A stretch of 32,778 nt of DNA from Nitrospinaceae bacterium. GTDB lineage: Bacteria > Nitrospinota > Nitrospinia > Nitrospinales > Nitrospinaceae. This document shows, piece by piece, positions 13,272 through 27,416 of the stretch. The stretch covers positions 1 to 32,778 of the forward strand of contig JAHELC010000019.1 of NCBI GenBank assembly GCA_024644405.1, in the 5' to 3' direction. Numbering within the stretch: position 1 is the stretch's first letter; every line of letters begins with the position of its first letter. The notes under the pieces are model-generated. The model was given only the letters and a program-made list of their open reading frames with translations. It did not search any database and was not told the DNA's origin. A program made the translations under genes and the position numbers.

Positions 13272-13324
13272 AATAGAAAAAGGATCGACAGGGTTTCCTG
13301 CAGATCCTTTTTCTATTTTTTTTT
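13272..13324 (+). terminator. strong terminator after the LRR gene
   Basis: A perfect 15-bp stem (13272-13286 with 13303-13317) with a 16-base loop runs into at least seven T. It sits between convergent genes and may also slow minus-strand transcripts. Confidence 0.9.
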
Positions 13325-26138: not shown

Positions 26139-26369
26139 TCAAATGATTTCAGTAAACGAGAACGATCCCATCAGCCCACTGATGAGGATCAATGACCTCA
26201 TGGGACCGTTCTCGTTGTTCAACATGCCGCGCATTGTACGCTTTTGTTCCGCCCGGCGGTAGACCTTTTTCGAGACCTTCACCTTCATCCGGTACCGCGG
26301 TCCCATCAACTCCTTGGCCACCGGATTTTCCTTAATGATTTCAATTTTCTTACCCATCGTTTTCTTCAT
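26139..26369 (-). CDS. ArfA-like ribosome-rescue factor (candidate)
   Basis: 76 residues, basic. Residues 15-35 match the core of ArfA (which recruits release factor 2 to ribosomes stalled on non-stop mRNA) without gaps: N15, L21, P24, Y26-R27, V30 and K34-K35 coincide with the conserved N.....L..P.(F/Y)R.(R/K)V...KK. A basic segment (VYRRAEQKR) follows, as in ArfA. The C-terminal 18 residues (SLILISGLMGSFSFTEII) are hydrophobic, like ArfA's degradation-prone tail. An mRNA hairpin (26155-26216) lies within codons 52-72. In arfA such a hairpin is cut and yields a truncated, active protein made only when rescue by tmRNA fails. AAAGGA precedes the ATG at 26369. Homology is my reading, not a search result. 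Confidence 0.7.
   Translation of the reverse strand: MKKTMGKKIEIIKENPVAKELMGPRYRMKVKVSKKVYRRAEQKRTMRGMLNNENGPMRSLILISGLMGSFSFTEII
26155..26216 (-). promoter_or_regulatory. hairpin inside the ArfA-like coding sequence
   Basis: Minus strand: AACGAGAACG pairs with CGTTCTCGTT (10 bp), then a G-U pair, then TCCCAT with ATGGGA (6 bp), a near-perfect 17-bp stem. The inner loop can form a smaller stem GAGG/CCTC. It lies 14-75 bases before the stop's first base, so cleavage by an RNase III-type enzyme would remove the stop codon. Only three T follow the stem, so termination is less likely than cleavage. Confidence 0.8.
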
Positions 26370-26383
26370 ATTCAATCCTTTGG

Positions 26384-27238
26384 TTAAATCCAAATACAAT
26401 CGGCTATCACCACACACATCAGGCCGACACTGATGATCCCGTTCACATTAAAAAAAGCAAAGTTGACTTTCGACAGGTCGTCACCCTTCACTAGAGAATG
26501 CTCGTAAATTAACAGTCCCGCCACCGCGATCACCCCTACCCCATAAAGCACTCCCAGGGCCGGATGCCACAACATGCCAAGGAGAAATAATATCATGAGC
26601 CCATGGGCCGCGTAAGCGATTTTCAGGGCGCGGTCGACCCCGAACCGTCTGGGAACCGAATAGACCTTGTTTTGATGGTCGGAATCCACATCGAGGCAGG
26701 AATAGATAATATCGAACCCGGTCAGCCAGAACACCACCGCCGCACCCAGAATGAGCGAAACCAGTGAGATTTCCTCCTTCACCGCCACCCAGGCCCCGAC
26801 CGGTGCGCAGGCCAGGGCGAATCCCAGGTACACGTGCGACCACGACGTGAAGCGTTTGGTGATCGAATAAAAAAACACAATCACCAACGCCACCGGCGAC
26901 AGGCTGAACGCCAGAGGGTTCAGCATGTAACTCGCCAGCACCAACACCGCCGAAGAGAGGACCAGAAAAACTCCATACTGAGCCACCGTCACCTCGCCCG
27001 CCGGCAGGGCCCGGTTCCGGGTGCGCGGATTGCGGGCGTCCAGCTGGGCATCCACGATGCGATTGAACGCCATGGCGGCGTTGCGCGCGCCGAACATCGC
27101 CAACAGGATCAACGCCAGCGTCTCCCAGTCCGGCATTCCTTCCGCCGCCAGGAACGCACTCATCACCGCGAACGGCAGGGCAAACACCGTGTGCTGGATC
27201 TTAATGTCCGAAAATATGATTTTCAATTTTCCCAGCAA
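26384..27238 (-). CDS. mqnP: UbiA-family prenyltransferase of menaquinone synthesis
   Basis: 284 residues, integral membrane protein with about eight spans. Two Asp-rich motifs bind magnesium and prenyl diphosphate: NRIVDAQLDARNPRT and DIIYSCLDVDSDHQ. It should attach the polyprenyl chain to the naphthoate ring. Its operon partner mqnE makes the MqnP type more likely than the ubiquinone UbiA, although UbiA proteins are hard to tell apart. I chose the TTG at 27238, with GGAGAGG 5 bases upstream, which gives MLGKLKIIFSDIKIQHTVFALP, the usual family start; an ATG at 27349 would add 37 residues that look unrelated. 14 bases separate it from the next gene. Confidence 0.85.
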   Translation of the reverse strand: MLGKLKIIFSDIKIQHTVFALPFAVMSAFLAAEGMPDWETLALILLAMFGARNAAMAFNRIVDAQLDARNPRTRNRALPAGEVTVAQYGVFLVLSSAVLVLASYMLNPLAFSLSPVALVIVFFYSITKRFTSWSHVYLGFALACAPVGAWVAVKEEISLVSLILGAAVVFWLTGFDIIYSCLDVDSDHQNKVYSVPRRFGVDRALKIAYAAHGLMILFLLGMLWHPALGVLYGVGVIAVAGLLIYEHSLVKGDDLSKVNFAFFNVNGIISVGLMCVVIADCIWI

Positions 27239-27416
27239 ACGCGCCTCTCCAAATTTTGAGAATATTACTTTTACGTAGCACCCTCCACTTTCTACAGAAA
27301 AATAAATTGGCTCCGGGCCTTGCCCGGTTATTGTACCCCACCCTTCCACTATTATTCCTTTTTAGTGGGCCCGGTTGCCTGTATATTGTTTGGACATTTA
27401 ATCTACAGAGTAGCCC

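Follow-up and report, generated by a model that had tools for sequence, protein, structure and literature searches.

In the closest described system, arfA, RNase III cuts a stem in the mRNA; as long as tmRNA is functional, the shortened product is tagged and degraded, and full-length ArfA is unstable owing to its hydrophobic tail (PMC3989581). In a survey spanning over 15,000 genomes, ArfA is limited to Gammaproteobacteria, some Betaproteobacteria and the Bacillus subtilis group (PMC11633108). The authors of the BrfA study expected further such factors, which sequence similarity alone cannot find (PMC6881298). Self-truncating backup rescue was previously known only in some Proteobacteria and in Bacillus. 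We analysed a window from Nitrospinaceae (the whole 32,778-nucleotide stretch of DNA) in which a small open reading frame (ORF) probably encodes an RF2-dependent backup factor of the ArfA type, produced from a self-truncating mRNA and being either a new branch of ArfA or its convergent twin. If true, this gene supplies the missing backup in a phylum with important marine nitrite oxidisers.

The locus shares features with BrfA, ArfT and ArfA. With BrfA (YqkK of Bacillus subtilis), compared here by its description only, it has in common a small basic product, an in-ORF structure expected to give a non-stop mRNA and RF2 as candidate partner (PMC6881298); unlike the window site, BrfA has an intrinsic terminator with a T-run. 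ArfT of Francisella is also a small rescue adaptor, but it is 40 amino acids long, lacks a terminator as well as an RNase III site and is not hydrophobic at the position of ArfA F25 (PMC6299226), where the family described here is aromatic; this family also has a hairpin. The likeness to ArfA (PF03889; E. coli YhdL) extends to size (72 against 76 amino acids here), a basic region followed by a tail, a core register of I+xN-(5)-L-(4)-[FY]R-x-x-V-(3)-KK followed by YxR, and an mRNA hairpin with mismatches that either lies in the ORF or spans the stop codon.

The small reading frame and its hairpin

The sequence-only reading had proposed a 76-residue ArfA-like rescue factor with a built-in hairpin, situated in a menaquinone operon. 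The ORF itself was confirmed, with an ATG start and an upstream AAAGGA, and the features of the locus are as follows.

26139..26369, minus strand: ArfA-like small ORF of 76 amino acids (P0001), with ATG start, homologues and the pS/pN of its core as evidence
26377..26382, minus strand: Shine-Dalgarno-like AAAGGA, read directly in the sequence upstream of the ORF's ATG
26253..26333, minus strand: core motif KENPVAKELMGPRYRMKVKVSKKVYRR, residues 13-39, from profile alignment to 12 ArfAs and near-invariant columns
26155..26216, minus strand: hairpin within the ORF over codons 52-72 (5' arm 26200-26216, 3' arm 26155-26171, inner stem between)
26142..26195, minus strand: hydrophobic tail SLILISGLMGSFSFTEII, residues 59-76, with low pLDDT
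25039..26130, minus strand: downstream neighbour MqnE (TIGR03700), above the NCBIfam cut-off, co-directional and 8 bp past the ORF's stop
26384..27280, minus strand: upstream neighbour, a UbiA-like prenyltransferase (TIGR01475), by NCBIfam match

The core of P0001 spans residues ~9-48, and the motif within it consists of NPVA+xL, an aromatic Y26 (at the ArfA F25 position), V30, KK34-35 and Y37xR39. Searches of Pfam, NCBIfam, PHROGs and PDB returned no family above cut-off for P0001, and viral scans found nothing. Its AlphaFold model is of low confidence (pLDDT 68, pTM 0.25) with helices at 16-21 and 39-52, in line with a peptide that perhaps becomes ordered only on the ribosome. The window also holds a tRNA-Thr (cgt) at positions 3-78 on the minus strand, at the extreme edge of the contig.

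Folding confirmed the 17-bp stem claimed for 26155-26216 over codons 52-72. The hairpin is 62 nt in length and consists of 17 bp, a 1x1 mismatch, 2 bp, another 1x1 mismatch and 7-8 bp, with a stability of -43 kcal/mol (z -8.3) that was reached by none of 200 shuffles, and it is the strongest and longest short-range inverted repeat in the 32.8-kb window. Rfam gave only sub-threshold matches to microRNA precursors, such as any hairpin gives. Given that there is no T-run terminator after the stem at the window site, where the sequence past the stem reads TACTGAAATC, the hairpin is not a classical intrinsic terminator. It is the proposed site of RNase III cleavage or of truncation. A long near-perfect inverted repeat might instead be a mobile or repetitive element (REP- or MITE-like) that landed in a small ORF by chance; however, no second copy was found in the 2.98-Mb genome, and this single-copy state already refutes such a reading here. 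The conservation of the hairpin with compensatory changes over the genus and the differing sequences that other genera have at this position likewise make an inserted element extremely improbable. Another strong inverted repeat, ranking second in the window, lies at 13272-13317 (21-nt arms, 90% complementary, 4-nt loop).

Selection on core and stem, and hairpins across the family

The pN/pS values computed over six species of the window's genus separate two layers of selection. In core codons 2-48, pS was 0.529 and pN 0.135 (pN/pS 0.26), and this part of the gene is under ordinary purifying selection at the protein level. By contrast, stem codons 52-72 had a pS of 0.155 and a pN of 0.142, so that synonymous change was down 3.4-fold and equal to non-synonymous change. 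Among the seven sequences available for covariation, 94.5% of cells were paired, 5 pairs had changed on both sides, and the covariation score was reached by none of 500 shuffles, whereas sliding the partners by 1-3 columns left pairing in just 32-54% of cells. Thus, the hairpin that the sequence-only reading had pointed to is conserved with compensatory changes. The homologue L007 is 1 nt shorter in the loop, so that its frame is shifted and the ORF stops inside the 3' arm while the stem stays intact, although an assembly error may conceivably account for this frameshift. Because synonymous change is suppressed, the arms covary and the L007 stem survives a frameshift, we conclude that the stem is kept as RNA and not as peptide, and it is very likely a conserved RNA element tied to the reading frame of its own gene. 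The case thereby offers a search route to such factors, namely to look for small basic ORFs that end in an RNA stem of their own, conserved and low in synonymous change.

The search of Nitrospinota genomes for which the sequence-only reading had called did reveal homologues. A search of 61 genomes found the family in most genera, with the weakest matches being chance. Among 77 Nitrospinota genomes, 34 were positive with profile A1, which represents families f1 and f4, and 35 with profile A2, which represents f2 and f3, or about half, with all clear matches falling within the window's order. The f1/f4 and f2/f3 groups are homologous, because A2 matches the window gene at 7e-8 and hhalign of A1 against A2 gives a probability of 97%. 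Judged by these profiles, the ORF belongs to an unannotated family of small basic proteins, in most of which the pattern (N/D)PVA+xL-(4)-[YF][RH]-x-+-V-x-x-S-K-K-x-Y-x-R-(3)-K can be read. A GenBank search with a pattern, albeit a narrow one, retrieved loci titled Nitrospinota, Nitrospinaceae or Nitrospina and one titled Nitrospirota, and no member outside these taxa. Two family copies are present in G022, on contigs C59 (L013) and C10 (C10:56509-56667), and paralogues therefore exist.

As for the menaquinone operon, the MqnE and UbiA-like flanks are indeed in place at the window site, but a role of the operon as part of the system did not hold. Since the gene adjoins mqnE only in f1 (besides L008, which is probably mis-binned) and has different neighbours in f2, f3 and f4, the operon is, on this comparison of gene order, incidental to the ORF. 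The exceptional L008 sits on contig C38 of G044, an f2-classed genome in which an f1-type copy nearly identical to L009 lies beside mqnE; this contig is possibly, even probably, mis-binned.

To count hairpins in the homologues, a fixed stretch around the stop codon (80 nt upstream and 30 nt downstream) was scanned; this count is unbiased, whereas z-scores on stems cut by eye are biased. A z below -4 was obtained in 12 of 33 homologues and in 1 of 78 control gene ends. Some stems are internal to the ORF and others span its stop codon; they are mostly long and broken by 1x1 mismatches, and comprise five different sequences (GAGAACGGTCCCAT, CAGGAAGGAYCCGAT, GAATTAAAGGAACCGAA, CAATCGGCAAAAGAA and AGGAATTCAGG). 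Where the tail after YxR has at least 22 residues, an uninterrupted stem of 10 bp or longer is almost always present; the tailed exceptions are the g8 pair (L030 and L076), and L012, with a tail of 13 residues, has no stem. None of the tail-less homologues, about a third of the family, has a hairpin; regulation by truncation is therefore not universal in the family. In L093 (G030), an assembly gap (a run of N) starts at the expected place of the hairpin, in the 3' part of the ORF. Among arfA genes fetched for comparison, the stem lies inside the ORF in E. coli, Pasteurella and Neisseria and across or against the stop in Photobacterium, Pseudoalteromonas, Vibrio and Proteus, while the arfA of Aeromonas is short and without such a stem.

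These family-wide data bear on the possibility that the product is an unrelated small basic protein (for example, one binding the ribosome or RNA) and that the hairpin acts as a stability or attenuation element for the downstream mqnE. Intergenic hairpins often set mRNA levels, and the f1 gene is indeed co-directional with mqnE and 8 bp upstream of it. However, f2, f3 and f4, with their other neighbours, include many members that keep a hairpin in the corresponding position, unrelated in sequence; the presence of a hairpin tracks whether the ORF itself has a tail, and the stop codon of that ORF often lies within the stem. Together with the missing T-run at the window site, these observations argue that an element serving mqnE is unlikely.

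Relation to ArfA and to other small proteins

The ungapped ArfA register N, L, P, Y-R, K-V and KK put forward from the sequence was upheld in its spacing but not in its P, which is not conserved in the homologues; the partners in E. coli ArfA are N14, L20, P23, F25-R26, R28-V29 and K33-K34, also without gaps. Aligning the f1/f4 profile with 12 ArfAs gave 25 ungapped columns with a score of 24.4, as compared with a maximum of 16.9 in 300 column shuffles. Four subsets picked one and the same register with scores of 16.7-24.8 (8.4 for a reversed decoy), of which the two weaker ones (the window's genus and the other f1 members) were only level with their own null maxima. For the f2 subfamily alone, the ArfA score was not above the null (reached in 32 of 300 shuffles). 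Thus, the expected similarity to a rescue factor was recovered in part: the family is ArfA-like above column shuffles, but Pfam and HMMER do not call it ArfA. The HHalign probability of the family against ArfA is only 42%. The Pfam ArfA model PF03889, with which E. coli ArfA as positive control scored 89.5 bits, did not match P0001 in a search of its own genome even at E <= 10. A reverse HMMER search with the A1 profile did not recover arfA in four gammaproteobacterial records, and HMMER alone therefore cannot establish the link; the same profile matched no rescue factor in the PDB. An open frame in G044 (L031) with a sub-cut-off Pfam ArfA match (2e-4) was rejected as an ArfA, being without the family core or architecture.

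Unlike ArfA, the family here falls below Pfam detection, occurs in a different phylum beside different neighbour genes, and lacks two ArfA marks. The KGKGS motif is absent, its GKG being missing so that KK runs straight into xYxR, and so is the Lys-His pair common to ArfA and BrfA, P0001 having no His at all; some true ArfAs (L049 and L052) are also without Lys-His. At the position of ArfA F25, which enters an RF2 pocket formed by V198 and F217 (PMC6299226), P0001 has Y26, and all homologues have Y or F. The RF2 of this genome (L140) has V and F at the V198 and F217 places, where its RF1 has T and A. Given that V198 and F217 are generally conserved in RF2, this pocket match is permissive evidence only. 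We have not filed the gene as ArfA because of the HHalign value, the Pfam and HMMER misses, the absence of KGKGS and Lys-His and the permissive nature of the pocket evidence; it nevertheless probably works like ArfA and may be a distant branch.

A competing assignment is to the uncharacterised DUF7230 (PF23876; small NPVAK proteins, many of them from phages), which would not be of the ArfA type. The family gives weak sub-cut-off matches to it (E 0.0018-0.008), and the present gene is the best DUF7230 match in several of these genomes. However, these matches reach at most 17-19 bits against a PF23876 cut-off of 27 bits, and in a comparison with ten phage proteins only the hexamer ENPVAK was common (score 17.0) and the remaining sequence was not alignable, as opposed to 25 columns and 24.4 for ArfA. 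We therefore consider membership of DUF7230 very unlikely. The phage members were reached with a query that served only as bait and were then checked against Pfam; such DUF7230-like NPVAK proteins (L144-L154) are mostly 37-77 aa in length and occur in rV5-like and jumbo phages, in over 170 records.

The remaining alternative differs from descent in ancestry only. The gene could represent a separately evolved, order-wide rescue-factor family of Nitrospinota, release-factor-dependent, that converged on the ArfA core pattern and re-invented a self-truncating, tmRNA-repressed mRNA. The patchy distribution within one order, the lack of KGKGS and of a Pfam match, and the f2 subfamily without ArfA similarity speak for it, and BrfA and ArfT, regarded as independent origins, provide precedent (PMC6881298; PMC6299226). 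It has to be set against the 25-column ungapped register common to ArfA and the four subsets and an f1/f4 score well above shuffles, and we entertain it as a tentative but serious possibility. If convergent, the family would have arrived at this feedback logic independently once more, gaining or losing hairpins along with a disposable tail. Given a rescue factor, descent from ArfA and convergence appear about equally likely to us.

Rescue inventory and proposed mechanism

For two Nitrospinae genomes, the survey cited at the outset reported smpB and ssrA as present and arfA, arfB and rqcH as absent (PMC11633108). Our own inventory tested 16 genomes. RNase III was found in all 16 and tmRNA above cut-off in 15 (partial at a contig end in G016), with a tag of ANDYDVAVAA; tmRNA matches in G001 were weak only. 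Proteins with an RF-1 domain numbered one or two of ~360 aa per genome (RF1 and RF2). None of the 16 genomes had a short ArfB-like RF-1-domain protein, an extra piece in G036 lying at a contig end, and none had RqcH above cut-off. No known ArfA was detected in these genomes, and GGQ, the mark of the ArfB hydrolase, is absent from P0001.

The conserved hairpin and the above-null ArfA profile score support the proposal of a new rescue factor or a new ArfA branch, and in our assessment the protein is probably a release-factor-dependent rescue factor. Of the three refuting conditions attached to that proposal, the two checked here, on profile similarity and on hairpin conservation, did not come true. 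By analogy with arfA, we infer a course of mRNA truncation, tagging and rescue. RNase III would cut the mRNA inside the stem (with transcription termination perhaps taking its place in some relatives), and a cut in codons 52-72 would let translation end on a message without a stop codon, with the hydrophobic tail SLILISGLMGSFSFTEII wholly or mostly lost. While tmRNA-SmpB is working, the nascent factor would be tagged with the above peptide and destroyed. When trans-translation is overloaded, a truncated protein of about 52-60 residues would be released with its core and basic region, insert the basic tail into the vacant mRNA channel and recruit RF2, leading to hydrolysis of peptidyl-tRNA on other ribosomes that have stalled. 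Full-length protein, which would be rare, should be unstable via its hydrophobic tail or, in one family, via a C-terminal LAA.

Eight f2 homologues (L018, L019, L021, L022, L025, L027, L028 and L079) terminate in ...LAA, an end that we take to be like that of the E. coli ssrA tag, and the full-length product may thus carry its own ssrA-type degron at the C-terminus. Since the LAA triplet of f2 lies inside the 3' arm, RNA constraint alone could also explain it. Among the gammaproteobacterial ArfAs L044-L046, L048 and L049, several end in IAA, KAA or MAA.
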